Below, piece after piece: positions 52,909 through 61,911 of a stretch of DNA of 64,000 bases. The translations under genes and the position numbers were made by a program. The DNA lies in contig JACIXD010000007.1 in NCBI GenBank assembly GCA_014360645.1, positions 62,001-126,000 of the forward strand. The letters are read 5' to 3'. Source of the DNA: Actinomycetota bacterium (lineage in GTDB: Bacteria; Actinomycetota; Geothermincolia; Geothermincolales; RBG-13-55-18). The notes below the pieces were generated by a model, which was given only the letters and a program-made list of their open reading frames with translations, searched no databases and was not told where the DNA came from. Position 1 is the first letter of the stretch, and every line of letters begins with the position of its first letter.

Positions 52909-54981
52909 TCAAGGCCGAGGACCTGGCCCCGTTATCCTTGCCGCGCAGACCTTGAGCTCGGGGATCTTGGCCACCGGGTCCAGGGCGGCGTTGGTGAGCA
53001 GGTTGGCCGCCGCCTCCGCGAAGTGGAAGGGCATGAAGATGATCCCCTTGCCCACCCTCTCCGTCACCCTGGCGTCCACCTCCACGCTGCCCCGCCGCGA
53101 GGAGACGGTTACTAGGTCCCCGTCGCGGATGCCCAGCTCCGCCGCGTCGGCGGGGTTCACCTCCACGAAGGCGCGGTCTATCTCCCGCACCAGGGAGGGC
53201 GAGCGTCTGGTCATGGTGCCGGTATGGTAATGGAAGATGAGGCGACCGGTGGTGAGCACCAGGGGGTATTCCGCGTCGGGCATCTCCGCCGGCTCGCGGA
53301 ACTCGCAGGGGGTGAATCTTCCCTTCCCGATGGGAAACGAGTCCACGTGCAGGATGGGGGTCCCGGGGTGGTCCTCGGCCGGGCAGGGCCACTGCAGCCC
53401 CCTCGTCCCCAGGCGCGCGTAGGTCATGCCGGCGTAAGAGGGCGTTACCTTGCGGATCTCCTCGAAGACCTCCTCGGGGGAGGAGAACTCGAAGCCCGCG
53501 GCGCCCATCCTGCGGGCGATCTCGCATATGATCTCCCAATCCGCCCGGGCCTCTCCCACAGGGGCGATGGCCTTCCGGATGCGCTGCACCCTACGCTCGG
53601 TGTTGGTGAAGGTGCCGTCCTTCTCGGCGAAGGATGCCGCCGGAAGCACCACGTGGGCGAGCTCGGCCGTCTCGTTCTCCATGATGTCCGACACCACGAG
53701 GAAATCGAGCTTCTCCAAGGCCTCACGCACGTGGTTGATGTCGGGGTCGGAGACCATGGGGTTTTCGCCCATGACGAAGAGCGCGCGCAGACCGCCCTCC
53801 GCCGCCCGCCCGGTCATCTCCACCACGGTAAGCCCCGGCTGCCTGGAAAGCCCTTCCACTCCCCAGGCCGCCTCGAACTTGGCCGCCACCTCCTCGTCGT
53901 TGACCCGCTGGTAGCCGGGATAGACGTTGGGAAGGCCGCCCATGTCGCAGGCGCCCTGCACGTTGTTCTGTCCGCGCAGGGGGTTCACGCCGCTTCCCGG
54001 CTTGCCGATGTTGCCCGTGAGCAGGGCCAGGTCGGCCAGGGCGAGGACGTTGTCGGTGCCGGTGGTGTGCTGGGTTATGCCCATACAGTAGACGATGGAG
54101 GCCCGCTCCGCCCCCGCGTAGAGGCGAGCCGCCGCCGCCAGGTCCGCCGCGGGGATGCCCGTGAGCTGCTCCACCCTCTCGGGAGTGTATTCAGCCACTG
54201 CCTTCTTGAACTCCTCGAAGCCCTCGGTGCGCGCGGCGATGAACTCCCGGTCCTCGAGCCCCTCGGATACGATCACGTTGGCCAGGCCGTTGATGTACGC
54301 CACGTCGCTCCCCGGCCTGGGGCGCAGGTATATCTCCGCGAACTCGCTGAGGTGGATGGCGCGGGGGTCGATGACGATGAGTTTTGCCCCCTTGCGCGCC
54401 GCCGCCAGTATCTTTTCCCCGATGATGGGATGCTGCTCGGTGGTGTTGGACCCCACCACCAGGATGACCTCGGCCTCCTCCAGCTCTCCGATGGAGTTGG
54501 TCATGGCCCCGCTGCCGAAAGCTGTCGCCAGACCGGCGACGGTGGGGCTGTGTCATAAACGTGCGCAGTGGTCCACGTTGTTGGTGCCGACCACCGCGCG
54601 CGCCAGCTTCTGCAGCAGGTAGTTCTCCTCGTTGGTGCAGCGGGCAGAGGCGAAAAAGCCCAGCGCGTCGGGTCCGTGCTCCTTCGCCGCCTTCGCAAGC
54701 CCCTCGGCCACCGCCGCCAGGGCGGTATCCCAGTCCGCTTCCACCAGCTTCCCGTCTCTGCGCACCATGGGCCTGGTCAGGCGGCGCTCGCTGTGCACGA
54801 ACTCGTGCGCATTCCAGCCCTTGATGCAGAGGGACCCCCTGGAGACGGGATGGTCCTTCTGGGGAAGGGTGCCCACCAACCTCCCGCCCCTCACCTCGAG
54901 CAGCACCCCGCAACCCGTCCCGCAGTACGCGCAGGTCGAGGGGACCGCGCGGTAGCTCAAGCCCTTGCCGTTCTCGCCCAT
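52909..54981 (-). CDS. fdhA: Selenocysteine-containing formate dehydrogenase, catalytic subunit
   Basis: A 690-residue molybdopterin oxidoreductase read through one in-frame TGA (54553-54555) as selenocysteine 143. The N-terminal [4Fe-4S] motif is CAYCGTGCG plus a later C in SLCIKG. The sequence around the TGA, [24 protein letters not shown], is that of Sec formate dehydrogenases. Downstream are MTNSIGELEEAEVILVVG, MGITQHTTGTDNVLALADLALLTGN, PLRGQNNVQGACDMGG, and the C-terminal cofactor-binding domain from about 580 (PLVLTTGRLIFHYHTGTMTRRS). It oxidises formate or reduces CO2 and passes electrons to the FdhB-like and Hdr subunits encoded upstream. No signal peptide, so cytoplasmic. Confidence 0.94.
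54524..54555 (-). promoter_or_regulatory. UGA selenocysteine codon and bacterial SECIS hairpin
   Basis: On the minus strand the TGA (54555-54553) is followed, after 12 bases, by GTCGCC-GGTCT-GGCGAC (54540-54524). This is a perfect 6-base-pair stem with the GGUCU loop recognised by SelB in the Escherichia coli fdhF element, at a similar spacing. It lies inside the reading frame, as bacterial SECIS elements do. Confidence 0.88.
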
Positions 54982-54985
54982 GTCC

Positions 54986-55792
54986 TCACTCCCGTTCCAA
55001 CTTCTCGATATCCTGCTCGCTGCCCAGGAAACTCAGGGGGCTCCTCTCCTCCGCGCTCTCCCCGGCGCGGTAGCCCAGCTTCTCCTCCATGATCTCCTGC
55101 ATCTTGCGATAGAGGGAGCGCAGGGGGATCTCCGCCGGGCAGGCCTCCTCGCACAGGCCGCAGTCGATGCACCTCCCGGCCATGTCCAGGGCGCGGATGA
55201 TATGGAAGGAGGGGAACTCCGGCGGGATGACCCCGGGTTCCACCAGGTGGGGGTTCTCCAGGGAGCAGTCCTTGCAGAAGCACATGGGGCAGATGTTGCG
55301 GCAGCCGTAGCACTTGATGCAGCGCGCGAACTGCTCCTTCCACCACTCCAGCCTCTCGGCATCGGAGAGCGCCTCCACCCTCAAGATGACCTCGCGACCC
55401 GGCGCCGCCTCCGCCTTCTCTCCCAGGGCGACCTCGGAGGGATAGGGGCGGGGGCAGCCGCACCTCTCCGCCTCTTCGGCGCTGCAGGCCACTCCCACCA
55501 GCACCAGGCGGTCGAGGTCCACCTGCTCCAACTTGGAGAGCTCGACGAGTGCCCGCTCATCGCAGCCGCGCACCAGCACCGCGAACCTTCCCTCGGGGTA
55601 TTCCCGCAGCAGCTCCATGAGTATCTTCCCCAGGGGGTAGCGCGCCTCGCCCACCGCCGCCTGCTCCAGGTCGGGGGATTCGGGGTCGGTGATGAGCGCC
55701 GGGAGCAGCGTCCCGTCCTCCTCCCTCAAGCAGAGGAAGGCGTCGACACCTTCCTTCAGCTTCTCCCTTACCAGTGACTTGAGGTCACTCAT
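54986..55792 (-). CDS. FdhB-like iron-sulfur subunit of formate dehydrogenase
   Basis: A 268-residue protein. The N-terminal half has an FrhB/FdhB-like pattern (VDAFLCLREEDGTLLPALIT, RFAVLVRGCDERALVELSKLEQVD, LVLVGVACS). Two ferredoxin-like Cys groups follow, CIKCYGCRNICPMCFCKDC and CIDCGLCEEACP. Start ATG 55792 overlaps the mvhD stop in an ATGA, so translation is coupled; fdhA starts four bases after its stop. It should wire electrons between FdhA and the Hdr module. Flavin binding is possible from the FrhB-like part but not visible as a motif. Confidence 0.88.
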   Translation of the reverse strand: MSDLKSLVREKLKEGVDAFLCLREEDGTLLPALITDPESPDLEQAAVGEARYPLGKILMELLREYPEGRFAVLVRGCDERALVELSKLEQVDLDRLVLVGVACSAEEAERCGCPRPYPSEVALGEKAEAAPGREVILRVEALSDAERLEWWKEQFARCIKCYGCRNICPMCFCKDCSLENPHLVEPGVIPPEFPSFHIIRALDMAGRCIDCGLCEEACPAEIPLRSLYRKMQEIMEEKLGYRAGESAEERSPLSFLGSEQDIEKLERE

Positions 55793-56241
55793 GCCCCCAC
55801 CTCCGCCTTCTTCCTGCGCAGCGGCGAAGGCCCCAGCGCCCTTATCTCCTCGGTGAAGGAGCGGATGACCTCGGCGTACTTCTCGCCCTCCGCCGCCGAG
55901 ACCCACTCCAAGCGTAGCCTGCCCTCCTCCAGCCCCAGGAACTTCAATGCCTCCCTTAGCACCTGGAAGCGTTTGGCGGTCATGTAGTTGCCCTTGAGGT
56001 AGTGGCAGTCCCCGATATGGCAGCCGGCGATGAGCACCCCGTCCATGCCCTCCTGGAAGGCCTTGACGACGAAATAGGGCGAGATGGTGCCGGTGCACAT
56101 CACCCTCACGTCCAACACGTTGGCGGGGTACTGCAGGCGCGAGACCCCCGCAAGGTCCGCCCCGGCGTACGAGCACCAGTTGCAGAGAAAGGCGAGTATG
56201 CGGATCTCCTCTTCTTCCCTTGCCTTGCTCTCCTCGGCCAC
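55789..56241 (-). CDS. mvhD: MvhD/FlpD-type electron transfer subunit
   Basis: About 150 residues. RILAFLCNWCSYAGADLAGVSRLQYP, VRVMCTGTISPYFVVKAFQEGMDGVLIAGCHIGDCHY and KGNYMTAKRFQVLREALKFLGL hold the cysteines that bind the [2Fe-2S] cluster of MvhD. In methanogens MvhD links hydrogenase, or formate dehydrogenase, to HdrA. GTG 56241 has GGAGGTG six bases upstream; GTG 56250 is the alternative. It overlaps the next gene and follows hdrA by about 20 bases. Confidence 0.92.
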   Translation of the reverse strand: MAEESKAREEEEIRILAFLCNWCSYAGADLAGVSRLQYPANVLDVRVMCTGTISPYFVVKAFQEGMDGVLIAGCHIGDCHYLKGNYMTAKRFQVLREALKFLGLEEGRLRLEWVSAAEGEKYAEVIRSFTEEIRALGPSPLRRKKAEVGA

Positions 56242-56260
56242 GGAACCCACCTCCTCGCTC

Positions 56261-59200
56261 TCAATCCCGCCAGGCGGACGCCGCCGCCTCGATCTGCTCG
56301 AATATCTGGTCGGCGCGGAAGCCCTGCAGGCGGCTGGCGCCCGCCGTGCAGGCCGCGGTGCAGGTTCCGCAGCCCTTGCACAGCGAGGAGTTCACCACCG
56401 CTACCCTCCGCTCCGCGTCGTAGGTCACGGCCTCGAAGGGACAGAGCTCCACGCAGATGCGGCACCCCGAGCACCTCTCGGCGTCCACCACCGCCACCAC
56501 GCCCTCGGTGACTATCTTCTCCTTGCTCAACACCGACTCCGCGCGCGCTGCCGCCGCCGCCGCCTGGGCCACCGACTCCTCAACGGACTTGGGGGCATGG
56601 GCCAGCCCGCACACGAAGACCCCGTCGGTGGCGAAATCCACCGGCCGCAGCTTCATGTGCGCCTCCAGGAAGAAGCCCTCGGCGTTGCGGGGCACCTTGA
56701 GCATGGGCGCGAGCTCGGCGTTGTCGGGGTTGGCGGTGACGCCCACCGAGAGCGCCACCAGGTCGGCGTTGAGGACCACCGTCTCCCCTCCCAGGTTGGC
56801 GTCGGGCACCCTCACCTGCAGCGTGCCCGCCACCTCGCGCACCTCGGGACGCACCACGTCATCGAAGCGGATGAAGACCACGCCCGCCTCCCGCGCCTCC
56901 CGGTAGAGGTCCTCGCGGAACCCGTAGGTGCGGATGTCGCGGTAGAGCACGAAGACCTCGGTGGAGGGGCTCAGCTCCTTGAGGGCCAGGGCGTTCTTCA
57001 CCGCCTCGGTGCAGCACACCTTGGAACAGTACGGGCGCTCCTCCTCCCGCGAGCCCACGCACTGGATCATCACCACCCGCCCCGTGCGCCGCAGAGACTC
57101 GTTTTTTTGCGCGATGCGCTCCTCCAGCTCCCACTGGGTGAGTACGCGAGGGCTCTCGCCGTACAGGTATTCCGAGGGCCGGTACTGCCCTCCCCCCGTG
57201 GCCACGATCACCGCGCCGTGCTCGAGCAGGGTCTCCCTGCCCTCGCCGTCCCGGATGAGGGTCTTGAACTGGCCCACGAATCCTCCCACGTCCACCACCC
57301 GGTGGCCCTTTAACACGGTGATGAGCTCCTCGCGTTCCACCGCATCCACCAGCCCGCGCAGGTACTCCTGTACGTCTTTTCCGTCGCGGTTGAAACGGAT
57401 GTTGCGCGCCAGGCCTCCCAGCTCCGCTTCCTTCTCCACCAGGTAGACCTGGAACCCGGAGCGGGCCAGGTTGAGGGCGGCGTTCATCCCCGCCACCCCG
57501 CCGCCGATGACCAGGCCGCGCGGCACGACCCCGCTCTCGCCCTCCGCCAGGGGCTCCAGACGGCGCGCCTTCTCCACCGCCATCTTCACCAGGTATTTGG
57601 CCTTGCGGGTGGCGTTCTCCGGCTCCTTCATGTGCACCCAGGAACAGTGCTCCCTGATGTTGGCCATCTCGAAGAGATATTTGTTCACCCCCGCCGACCG
57701 CAGGGTCTCTCGGAAGAGGGGCTGGTGGGTGCGGGGGGTGCATGATGCCACCACCAGGCGGTTGAGCCCGTGCTCATCCACCACCTGCCTTATCCATTCC
57801 TGGGCGTCCTGGGAACATGCGTAGAGGCGCTCCTCCGCGAACACCACGCCGGGGAGGCCGCGCGCGTATTCCACCACCGCCGGCACGTCCACGAAGCCCC
57901 CGATGTTGGAGCCGCAGCGGCAGATGATGGCTCCCACGCGCGGCTCCTCGCCGCTGACGTCCCTTTCCGGCGGATGCTCGCGGCGCGTGAGCAGGCTCCC
58001 CCTCGCCCCGTGCAGGGCCTGGGAGGCGATGCCCGCCGCGGCGGTGGCCTGGGTGACGGTGTCCGGGATGTCCTTGGGCTCCTGGGCCGCCCCGCATACC
58101 AGTACCCCCGGCCGAGAGGAGAGCACGGGGAGGAAGGAATCGGCCTCCGCGAAGCCGTAGCCGTTGACCTCCAGTCCCAGTCCCTCCCGGAGCCCGCATG
58201 GCGCCTCCAGCCCTATGGACAGCACCACCAGGTCGAACTCCTCCTCGCGCGTGCATCCCTCCTCGTCGGCGTAGCGCAGGAGGAGGTTTCTGGTACGCTG
58301 GCGCTCACGGATCCCCGAGACGAGGCCGCGCACGTAGCGAACACCCGACCTCTCCCCGGCGTTGACGTAATACTTCTCGAAGTCCTTGCCGTAGGCGCGC
58401 ATATCGATGAAGAAGATGGTGGGCTCGATGGTGGGCAGGTGCTCCTTGGCGATGAGGGCCTGCTTGGTGGCGTACATGCAGCATACGCTGGAGCAGTAGC
58501 CGTTGCCCACCGTGACGTCGCGGGAGCCCACGCACTGGATGAAGGCGAGCTTTTTCACCTCCCGACCGTCGGAGGGGCGCGTCACGTGACCCTGGGTGGG
58601 GCCGTTGGCCCCCAGGATGCGCTCGAACTCCAGCGAGGTCACGACGTTCTCATACACCCCGTAGCCGTATTCCGTCTTGCGGGCGGCATCGAAGGGCCTG
58701 TATCCCTGCGCGGCGATGACCATGCCCACGCGGTAGACCTCCTCGCGCTCCTTCTGCTCGAAATCGATGGCTCCCGCCTGGCAGACCTTGGCACAGTTGC
58801 CGCATTTTCCCTTCGTCAGCATGCGGCAGACCTCGCCCTCGATGACCGCCGCCCCCGGCACCGCCTGAGGGAAGGGTACGCGGATGCAGCGCGTCTGGTT
58901 GAGGTCGGCGTTGTAGGGGTCGGGGATCTTTACCGGGCACTTGGCGGTGCAGTCGCCGCACCCGGTACATCTATCGATATCGACGTAACGGGGGCGGATG
59001 CGCAGCCGCACGCTCATGTCTCCCGGCTCCCCTTCGACGGAGAGCACGTCCGCCATGGTGATGACCTCGATGTTGATGTTGGAGGCCACCTCCACCATCT
59101 TGGGGGAGAGGATGCACATGGAGCATTCGTTGGTGGGAAAGGTCTTGTCCAGCATGCCCATGACCCCGCCGATGGAGGGGGACGAGTCCACGAGATAGAC

Positions 59201-59587
59201 CCTGTACCCCAGGTCGGCCAGCTCCAAGGAGGCCTGGATGCCCCCCACGCCGCCCCCCACAACCATCACCGCGCCCACCGGGCCTTCGAGTGCCGGGCCG
59301 CCGTTTCCGGGCGTGCCGCTCTTTTCGACTGCCTTTCCGTGTCGGTCATTCCCTGTTTTCGTCGCCTGTTCCATCTTCTCGGGGGTCTTCTTGTTCCCGG
59401 CGGCCTTGACCTCGGCGGCCGATTTCTTCTCCCCGGCGGCCTTCCTTCCGCCACCGGTCGTCCTCTCCCTGTTCCCGGCGGCCTTTTTCTCTGTGTTGCT
59501 CTTTCTCTCCACGGATCCCATGCCTGTATCCTCCGCGCCCTTCGTACGCGCCGCGCCTTTCTTCCCGCTTTTCTCTTTCTCCGCCAT
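56261..59587 (-). CDS. hdrA: HdrA-like flavoprotein, double-length with basic N-terminal extension
   Basis: A 1108-residue protein, longer than methanogen HdrA (about 650). Residues 1-~100 are a Lys/Ala/Gly/Glu-rich, probably disordered tail. The first FAD-binding motif VMVVGGGVGGIQASLELADLG is near residue 108. CTGCGDCTAKCP and CGNCAKVC follow, then CVGSRD with CSSVCCMYATKQ. A middle part has ICRCGSNIGGFVDVPAVVEYA and VVASCTPRTHQPLFRETL. A second FAD motif, GLVIGGGVAGMNAALNLARSG, comes next, then CVGSREEERPYCSKVCCTEAVK, and two C-terminal ferredoxin motifs, CSGCRICVELCP and CKGCGTCTAACTAGA. This is the HdrA2-like, two-module arrangement linked to flavin-based electron bifurcation. Confidence 0.93.
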   Translation of the reverse strand: MAEKEKSGKKGAARTKGAEDTGMGSVERKSNTEKKAAGNRERTTGGGRKAAGEKKSAAEVKAAGNKKTPEKMEQATKTGNDRHGKAVEKSGTPGNGGPALEGPVGAVMVVGGGVGGIQASLELADLGYRVYLVDSSPSIGGVMGMLDKTFPTNECSMCILSPKMVEVASNINIEVITMADVLSVEGEPGDMSVRLRIRPRYVDIDRCTGCGDCTAKCPVKIPDPYNADLNQTRCIRVPFPQAVPGAAVIEGEVCRMLTKGKCGNCAKVCQAGAIDFEQKEREEVYRVGMVIAAQGYRPFDAARKTEYGYGVYENVVTSLEFERILGANGPTQGHVTRPSDGREVKKLAFIQCVGSRDVTVGNGYCSSVCCMYATKQALIAKEHLPTIEPTIFFIDMRAYGKDFEKYYVNAGERSGVRYVRGLVSGIRERQRTRNLLLRYADEEGCTREEEFDLVVLSIGLEAPCGLREGLGLEVNGYGFAEADSFLPVLSSRPGVLVCGAAQEPKDIPDTVTQATAAAGIASQALHGARGSLLTRREHPPERDVSGEEPRVGAIICRCGSNIGGFVDVPAVVEYARGLPGVVFAEERLYACSQDAQEWIRQVVDEHGLNRLVVASCTPRTHQPLFRETLRSAGVNKYLFEMANIREHCSWVHMKEPENATRKAKYLVKMAVEKARRLEPLAEGESGVVPRGLVIGGGVAGMNAALNLARSGFQVYLVEKEAELGGLARNIRFNRDGKDVQEYLRGLVDAVEREELITVLKGHRVVDVGGFVGQFKTLIRDGEGRETLLEHGAVIVATGGGQYRPSEYLYGESPRVLTQWELEERIAQKNESLRRTGRVVMIQCVGSREEERPYCSKVCCTEAVKNALALKELSPSTEVFVLYRDIRTYGFREDLYREAREAGVVFIRFDDVVRPEVREVAGTLQVRVPDANLGGETVVLNADLVALSVGVTANPDNAELAPMLKVPRNAEGFFLEAHMKLRPVDFATDGVFVCGLAHAPKSVEESVAQAAAAAARAESVLSKEKIVTEGVVAVVDAERCSGCRICVELCPFEAVTYDAERRVAVVNSSLCKGCGTCTAACTAGASRLQGFRADQIFEQIEAAASAWRD

Positions 59588-59597
59588 CTCCGGCCTC

Positions 59598-60470
59598 CTA
59601 CGCCAAGCCCTTCGCGTATAGCAGCGGCCGCGGGTCCACCAGGTGTTTGGCGAACCACTCCTCCGTCCCTTTCATGCCCAGTGCGAGGGCCATGAGCTCG
59701 GTGAAGAAGAACACCGGCAGGTCGTGTTCCAGACGGAAGAACAGCCTGCCCTCCCGCTGGCGCATCTCCAGGTTGGCCAGGCACATGGGACAGGCCACCA
59801 CGATGCAGTTGGCGTCCGCTTCCTCCGCCGCCTCGAAAAGGCGGTTGACCAGCTTCACCACGATGTCGGTCCTGGTCAGCGAAAGACTGCCCCCGCAGCA
59901 GTCCGTCTTGTAGGACCACTTTCTCACCTCGGCGCCCATGGCCGAGAGCAGGTCGTCCATGAGGCGCGGGTTGTCGGGATCGTCGTTGGAGATCATGCCC
60001 CGCGGGCGCACCATGAGGCAGCCGTAATAGGATACGGGCCTCAACCCCTCCAGGGGCCTGGCTACCTTTTCCTTCAGCGCCTCCAGGCCCACTTCCTCGG
60101 CGATGACGTCCAGGAGGTGGACGATCCTGCCCTCGAAACGGGGATCGGAGCCCACGATGCGCTCCACCTGCGCTGCCGTGGAAGGGTCTTCCAGGATCTC
60201 CTTCTGGGCCTTCTTGAGGTTGTGGTAGCAGGCGGCGCAGACCACCACCAGGTCACCGCCCCGCTGCCTGGCCTTGGCCAGGTCGCGCCCGGGAAGGGAG
60301 AGGGCCAGCAAGTGGTTGGTCATGTGCGCCGAGGAGGCGCCGCAGCAGTTCCAGTCCGGCAGGGTCTCGAGCTTGAACCCCAGCCTCTCCGAGACCTTGA
60401 GGGCGGACTCCCCGTATTCCTCCGCCGAGGAGAGCTGGGAACATCCCGGATAAAAACTGTAGGTCTTCAT
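59598..60470 (-). CDS. hdrB: HdrB-like subunit with two CCG domains
   Basis: A 290-residue protein. YSFYPGCSQLSSAEEYGESAL opens the first CCG domain, with LPDWNCCGASSAHMT and VVVCAACYHNLKKA. The second has VSYYGCLMVRP, SYKTDCCGGSLSLTR and VVACPMCLANLEMRQ. These Cys sets bind the noncubane [4Fe-4S] clusters where heterodisulfide is cleaved in HdrB. The bacterial physiological disulfide is unknown. It is spaced 10 bases from hdrA and 172 from hdrC. Confidence 0.93.
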   Translation of the reverse strand: MKTYSFYPGCSQLSSAEEYGESALKVSERLGFKLETLPDWNCCGASSAHMTNHLLALSLPGRDLAKARQRGGDLVVVCAACYHNLKKAQKEILEDPSTAAQVERIVGSDPRFEGRIVHLLDVIAEEVGLEALKEKVARPLEGLRPVSYYGCLMVRPRGMISNDDPDNPRLMDDLLSAMGAEVRKWSYKTDCCGGSLSLTRTDIVVKLVNRLFEAAEEADANCIVVACPMCLANLEMRQREGRLFFRLEHDLPVFFFTELMALALGMKGTEEWFAKHLVDPRPLLYAKGLA

Positions 60471-60642: not shown

Positions 60643-61179
60643 TCATGACTTCGTCTCCTTGAAGATGCGCCGGACCTCGCGGTTGCCCCTGACCACGCTG
60701 GGGATGAGCTTGATCTTTCCTTTCTTGAGCATCTCCACCGCCAGCCCGATGTCGCTCAAGAGGTCCCCCGATAAGCTCTTGTACGCCCCCATGAGCACGG
60801 GCTCGCTGATGCGCCCCGTGGCCTGGATGTTGCCCAGGAAACAGCGGTGGAAGAGGGGTATGTTGCGCTCCGCGGGCTTCACGCCCTCCTCCAGCGCCAT
60901 GGCTCTGAGGGTATCCATCACCCGCGCCACGTCGATGTCGTTGGGGCAGCGCGCGGTGCAGGTCTCGCAGGAGGCGCAGATCCAGATGGTATGGGACGCG
61001 AGCAACCTCTCCTTCTGCCCGTACTGCGCCAGCTTCATCACCTGGTGGGGGAGGATATCCATGGCGAAGTTGAATAGGCAGCCCGTGCTGCACTTCCCGC
61101 ACTGGAAACACAGGCGCGGCTTCTCCCCGCTGCGCCTCTCGATCTCCCGCTCCAGTCCCGTGTCCAGGGTGTTGATCAT
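60643..61179 (-). CDS. hdrC: HdrC-like ferredoxin subunit
   Basis: A 178-residue protein. Two [4Fe-4S] motifs, CFQCGKCSTGCLFNF and CASCETCTARCPNDID, sit in a helical frame, and a LIPSVVRGNREVRRIFKE tail is typical of HdrC. ATG 61179 follows GGGAGGTG by seven bases; the in-frame extension upstream is not conserved. It is first in the operon and should pass electrons from HdrA to HdrB. The promoter should lie in the AT-rich stretch at 61430-61560. Confidence 0.92.
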   Translation of the reverse strand: MINTLDTGLEREIERRSGEKPRLCFQCGKCSTGCLFNFAMDILPHQVMKLAQYGQKERLLASHTIWICASCETCTARCPNDIDVARVMDTLRAMALEEGVKPAERNIPLFHRCFLGNIQATGRISEPVLMGAYKSLSGDLLSDIGLAVEMLKKGKIKLIPSVVRGNREVRRIFKETKS

Positions 61180-61911
61180 TCCAGCACCTCCCATCCTACG
61201 GCGGAGACCCTCCCGGCTCTCGTCCATCTGCCGAAACCGGGAGGCGGTCATGGGTCACCGACATGCCTTACCCGTGCTCAACAGCTTCCTCTCTCGTCTC
61301 CACCGACTCCTCTTTTCCGACCTCCTCTTCACGACCGCTGCCACCGTCTTGTGGACGAAACGCCGTCCGAGACGCACAAGACGGAAAGATTCTATGCCCG
61401 CTGTGGGCCATCCGCCATAATCCATATCATCCGATAACGTATAAACCCGCACTTCAAATACCTACACGGGTTTTCGGGTGGCGTTACCCCTTCCATCTTT
61501 TAATATCACATTTGACTATTAAGTTCTAGTTAATGTCCGTTAACCTAATGCACCTCAATTGTAACCCTTTTCCGCGCCGCCATCCAGTACCCGCCCATCC
61601 AGTACCCGCCGAAAGATCGCGAGATGTTTGCGGGCTCCTTGGAGGCCGCAGGCAAAGCCCGGTTTTTCACTCACCGGGGGCATGCCGCCCCGCCGGTCAC
61701 ATCTCCCTTTTTTGCCACGCGAAATGATCGTCTCTTCCCGCCTCCCTCTCGGAGATATCTCGCCCCGGCAGAGGTGTTTTCCGTCAGTCCGCCCGTGGAA
61801 CGTGGCGCGTGGCCGCCTCGCGAGGGTTTACCGCACGGCCAGATCTGCCGCGCCGGAAGCATGTCCGAGCAGGATGGAGGTCGGGACCTGGGAGAGGCGG
61901 GGAGCTTTTCT
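61180..61911. other. Gene-free stretch upstream of the hdr operon
   Basis: There are 732 bases. An AT-rich part at 61430-61560 (TTTTAATATCACATTTGACTATTAAG) is the likely promoter zone of the minus-strand hdr operon. A 15-base tandem duplication, CCATCCAGTACCCGC, fills 61580-61609. The right half has only poor, arginine-rich open frames; no gene called. Confidence 0.45.

Follow-up and report, generated by a model that had tools for sequence, protein, structure and literature searches.

The window analysed here is a stretch of DNA of 64,000 nucleotides from a genome that is closest, among named organisms, to Candidatus Solincola species (Actinomycetota, Candidatus Geothermincolia). Its minus strand carries a six-gene operon, hdrC-hdrB-hdrA-mvhD-fdhB-fdhA (61251-52909), in which fdhA lies last. 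The start codon of fdhB (ATG at 55792) shares bases with the mvhD stop, and a gap of 4 nt separates fdhB from fdhA. All HdrABC-MvhD-FdhAB subunits are encoded together, and at least 12 relatives of the class whose neighbourhoods are complete keep this six-gene order. The features are:

60643-61251, minus strand: hdrC (TIGR03290/NF041779 below cut-off, plus Fer4 pairs; order conserved in relatives)
59598-60470, minus strand: hdrB, both Cys-rich CCG motifs intact (PF02754, TIGR03288; HdrB of 7bkb and 9sfi)
56261-59587, minus strand: hdrA, 1108 aa, double HdrA-like flavoprotein, Cys only (NF040770; HdrA of 5odc, 8rvu and 7bkb)
55789-56250, minus strand: mvhD/FlpD (PF02662, 177.6 bits)
54986-55792, minus strand: fdhB, 268 aa, two [4Fe-4S], C-terminal part (start ATG at 55792 read from the sequence)
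52909-54981, minus strand: fdhA, formate dehydrogenase alpha subunit, 690 aa, Sec at residue 143
54553-54555, minus strand: Sec codon TGA (TGA in 73/110 homologues, a Cys codon in 37/110, nothing else)
54524-54540, minus strand: apical hairpin of a bacterial SECIS, 6 bp, loop GGUCU (Rfam SECIS_3, 47.3 bits; covariation)

The fdhA region (54981-52909) is a single frame that ends in TGA and has one further TGA inside it (54555-54553). Standard gene calling cuts it into ORFs of 142 and 531 aa; automatic callers would give two ORFs for fdhA, an annotation that is put right here. An earlier note on this DNA had taken the region for one frame and not for two genes or a nonsense mutation, and the family match agrees: TIGR01591 (Fdh-alpha) runs through the TGA, covering residues 16-683 with 901.6 bits (cut-off 666.25), and FdhA belongs to this family over its whole length. 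The closest solved chain is 9t1s_L, from a formate dehydrogenase in which the corresponding residue is non-standard (X); 7qv7, the FdhF of hydrogen-dependent CO2 reductase, comes next. The homologue alignment places the TGA, as had been proposed, at the Sec position of Sec formate dehydrogenases, within a U143-H-S-P (UHxP) motif.

The methanogen HdrABC-MvhD-FdhAB complexes (PDB 7bkb, 9t1s) have the same subunit set and provide the best solved matches of the main subunits; in 9t1s, FdhA also carries its non-standard residue at the Sec site. The two kinds of system differ in several respects. FdhB has about 268 aa here against 383-414 in the methanogens, and it matches only the C-terminal [4Fe-4S] part of FdhB in the solved Hdr-Fdh complexes (9t1s_M, 7bkb_E, 8rvu_E). 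The methanogen-style flavin/F420 module is missing from this match: no FrhB/FdhB flavin/F420 domain was detected in FdhB, for which Pfam gives Fer4 only, and its N-terminal 140 residues (54986-55792, minus strand) matched no Pfam or NCBIfam family. HdrA is doubled here (1108 aa), and a CoM/CoB heterodisulfide is not expected. At the start of HdrA (window 59300-59587, minus strand), a Lys/Ala/Glu-rich low-complexity tail of about 95 residues with no recognised domain stands where HdrA usually has its N-terminal region.

Exactly 12 nt 3' of the internal TGA lies the hairpin GTCGCC-GGTCT-GGCGAC (54540-54524). The perfect hairpin with a GGUCU loop that had been reported twelve bases on is present as described, with a perfect 6-bp stem. 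Across the 64 kb, no other TGA has a perfect 6-bp hairpin with a GGTCT loop 9-15 nt behind it, the chance expectation being a mean of 0.05 per window (first-order Markov windows). The SECIS of Escherichia coli fdhF is presumably built in the same way, as a hairpin close behind the UGA with a GGUCU loop; the stem sequence here differs from it. A scan with a bacterial SECIS model, which the earlier note had proposed, gave a divided answer. SECIS_3 (RF01989) was the best Rfam family at the hairpin, over its full length, in a threshold-free search (47.3 bits, E 3.1e-10), but this score lies below the Rfam gathering score of 63, and a search of the window at the gathering threshold called no SECIS. 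Folding energy was set aside as uninformative (z -0.54 for the stretch alone). Since the hairpin energy is unremarkable, proof of the SECIS is comparative, from TGA against Cys homologues, and not energetic.

This comparison used 110 FdhA homologues, drawn from the genome's relatives and from GTDB genomes. Alignment of homologues, also proposed earlier, found 73 TGA and 37 Cys codons at the site and never a frame disruption; the TGA-carrying sequences come from many phyla. The GGTCT loop is present in 69 of 71 distinct TGA sequences and in 6 of 37 Cys sequences, and all six stem pairs are formed in 66/71 and 2/37, respectively. Covariation was tested on 69 distinct TGA sequences against the 37 Cys sequences. 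Paired stem cells numbered 406/414 in the TGA group and 137/222 in the Cys group; the former value compares with a shuffled mean of 353 and was reached by none of 2000 shuffles. The loop T, which is the synonymous third position of the loop Gly codon, is found in 69/69 TGA sequences and 7/37 Cys sequences. Where two third-codon positions face each other in the stem, they pair in 69/69 TGA sequences, with five pair types, and in 17/37 Cys sequences. Under one and the same protein constraint, the DNA that follows the codon thus differs between the two groups. The hairpin has been retained only alongside TGA, covariation of its stem at synonymous sites is confined to the TGA homologues, and a bacterial SECIS directly downstream is conserved together with the UGA. 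In close relatives, two TGA copies reach 47 bits with SECIS_3, against 27-30 bits for two Cys copies. The TGA-specific conservation of the hairpin is therefore taken to exclude nonsense mutation, sequencing error, and code reassignment.

One of these alternatives holds that the gene is broken, or that its codon is truly TGC and the TGA a sequencing error. The TGC found at this site in a sister species (G002) would fit, but the same codon is TGA in 73 homologues from many phyla with a hairpin held by synonymous-site covariation, and the genome carries complete Sec machinery, which together make this explanation very improbable. In this genome (3.38 Mb, 98% complete), selD, a SirA/YedF-like gene, selA, selB, and tRNA-Sec(UCA) are clustered within 5.6 kb on contig C8 (139273-133630), and fdhD is present on contig C1. 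The earlier expectation that the organism has SelA-D although none is in the window is confirmed by this cluster, with selA, selB, selD, and tRNA-Sec together on another contig. Among 39 relatives, an FdhA with TGA is absent from all six that have no SelB above the curated cut-off (G017, G018, G026, G030, G033, G034); two of these, G017 and G018, are without selA as well. SelD of the same genome (L009:12354-13274, minus strand) has an in-frame TGA (SGUAAK) and is probably a selenoprotein itself. A second FdhA with an in-frame TGA (G000:C3:38021-40081, plus strand, in L159) is 62% identical, has a longer frame, and lies away from hdr genes.

A reassigned code, in which UGA would be a sense codon throughout the organism and the TGA nothing special, is more improbable still. 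Five of the six operon genes terminate with TGA, so UGA is still a stop here, and the SECIS stands behind the codon in TGA homologues only.

The window thus most probably encodes a bacterial cytoplasmic HdrABC-MvhD-FdhAB complex with a selenoprotein catalytic subunit, in which Sec is inserted at the UGA via SelB (probability about 0.93). The frame, the codon, the covarying SECIS, the genome machinery, the operon, and the family membership are direct observations; Sec insertion by SelB at the fdhA UGA, as predicted from sequence, is as good as certain. In the proposed mechanism, SelB on the hairpin just behind the codon would deliver Sec-tRNA-Sec to the UGA, and the selenolate would then be able to ligate the presumed Mo or W of the FdhA active site. 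Formate would be oxidised (or CO2 reduced) at FdhA. Electrons would pass from the iron-sulphur clusters of FdhB through MvhD to the HdrA flavin, where they would probably be bifurcated, one branch going to ferredoxin and the other to an acceptor of higher potential at HdrB. We infer from the operon, and from biochemical work on the methanogen complexes, that this complex serves as an electron-bifurcating formate dehydrogenase; its formation and the acceptor at HdrB are putative as well.

A Sec catalytic unit tied to Hdr genes in a non-methanogen had earlier been singled out as remarkable, but such systems are already published (PMC5736913, PMC2702500). Sec-containing HdrBCA-MvhD-FdhBA was described in 2017 in deep-sea Chloroflexi single cells and in Desulfobacula toluolica Tol2 (PMC5736913). 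Going by their description, those non-methanogen loci share with the present one a Sec FdhA beside FdhB, MvhD, HdrA, HdrB, and HdrC, and their FdhB was reported with an iron-sulphur domain, as here (PMC5736913). They differ in host, which here belongs to Actinomycetota, Geothermincolia, and the gene order here is hdrC-hdrB-hdrA-mvhD-fdhB-fdhA. The sulphate reducer Desulfobacterium autotrophicum HRM2 likewise has Sec FdhAs and hdrA-mvhD-fdhB-fdhA neighbourhoods (PMC2702500); in several of its loci HdrA and MvhD are themselves selenoproteins, whereas both are Cys forms here. A cluster of mvhD with hdrABC was seen earlier in the actinobacterial clade RBG-13-55-18 (PMC7325909). The known Sec-Fdh-Hdr operon is now extended to a deep actinobacterial class.

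Sec and Cys have been exchanged many times in the FdhA family: the tree carries 17 changes, at least 11 of them forced by well-supported branches. Sec is dispensable for the FdhA enzyme in this lineage, because the sister species G002, which has the nearest copy (88% identical), uses the Cys form (TGC). Origin of this Cys copy by a replaced DNA patch was considered and rejected: identity is about 0.70 over the SECIS and 0.86 overall, but equally low windows occur elsewhere in the gene, so relaxed constraint explains the low SECIS identity as well.

The less ordinary point is a rare tRNA in the same genome that may be able to put Cys at the same codon. This tRNA-Sec-like tRNA-Cys(GCA) lies outside the window, at G000:C16:27563-27655 (plus strand; L021:1501-1593). 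It was the second match above the cut-off in the tRNA-Sec search, which covered C16:27563-27650, and tRNA-Sec is its best Rfam family (59.2 bits, cut-off 47). It has a GCA anticodon, U73, an encoded CCA, a long variable arm with a helix, and a 5-bp/4-nt D arm; U73 and an encoded CCA are also seen in the relatives' copies, most of which have an acceptor stem of 8 bp. The features of selC*-type tRNAs are therefore found: a GCA or UCA anticodon, U73, a tRNA-Sec-like body, an 8-bp acceptor stem, and a long variable arm. Pair 1-72 of the acceptor stem is A-C in this genome's copy. The helices covary, with double changes at 12/30 pairs (reached by 0/500 shuffles). Counting this genome, 12 of 31 class genomes have such a tRNA (11 of the 30 relatives). 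It is not the sole tRNA-Cys of the genome, a possibility rejected on finding a canonical one (C6:208731-208758), and because of this canonical tRNA-Cys, ordinary Cys codons can be read without it.

The published selC* tRNA-Cys group likewise has a GCA anticodon, U73, a tRNA-Sec-like body, and a coexisting tRNA-Sec and SelB (PMC7609411, PMC11415595), and the C16 tRNA fits with this group. The hosts given are Firmicutes, Thermodesulfobacteria, Nitrospirae, and Proteobacteria, with Actinomycetota not among them (PMC7609411). Three relatives have a 4-bp T stem with the extra A known from the selC* group, whereas this genome's copy has a 5-bp T stem. In a phylum-level relative (G032; L175, plus strand), a tRNA of the same kind precedes a second SelB gene (G032:C16:7792-9672) by about 80 nt. 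Its position directly upstream of an extra selB closely resembles what has been described for selB* in Desulfobacterales and Syntrophobacterales.

For a tRNA of the same kind in Desulfotomaculum nigrificans, PMC11415595 (citing Vargas-Rodriguez 2018) reports decoding of a Sec UGA as Cys through SelB. An ambiguous UGA might be envisaged here on this precedent: tRNA-Sec(UCA) would supply Sec and the tRNA-Sec-like tRNA-Cys(GCA) would supply Cys, with the same SelB and SECIS and perhaps according to selenium supply. This is possible, though the odds lean against it. The resemblance of the C16 tRNA to tRNA-Sec, its GCA anticodon, U73, CCA, and covarying helices speak for it, as does the canonical tRNA-Cys that already serves ordinary Cys codons; Cys FdhAs in the same family make a Cys enzyme plausible. 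On the other hand, the GCA anticodon mispairs with UGA, the first acceptor pair in this genome is A1-C72, and 19 of 31 class genomes are without the tRNA, many of them keeping a Sec FdhA. Charging of the C16 tRNA by CysRS, its binding by SelB, and its decoding of the codon are putative functions, suggested by analogy; part of the FdhA might carry Cys instead of Sec. The wider proposition, that in Geothermincolia the Sec UGA of Hdr-linked FdhA is a codon of two meanings, Sec or Cys, with the same SelB and SECIS, is rather unlikely.

SelB-dependent insertion of Sec remains the preferred reading of the fdhA UGA. If the C16 tRNA works as reported in Desulfotomaculum, the active-site residue would not be readable from DNA alone. 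If the codon does have both meanings, the enzyme could be made with or without selenium, and dual decoding would give the lineage an intermediate stage in the Sec/Cys exchanges that recur on the tree. How Sec and Cys come to be exchanged in evolution can be tested in this family on close relatives with Sec, with Cys, and with and without the selC*-type tRNA.
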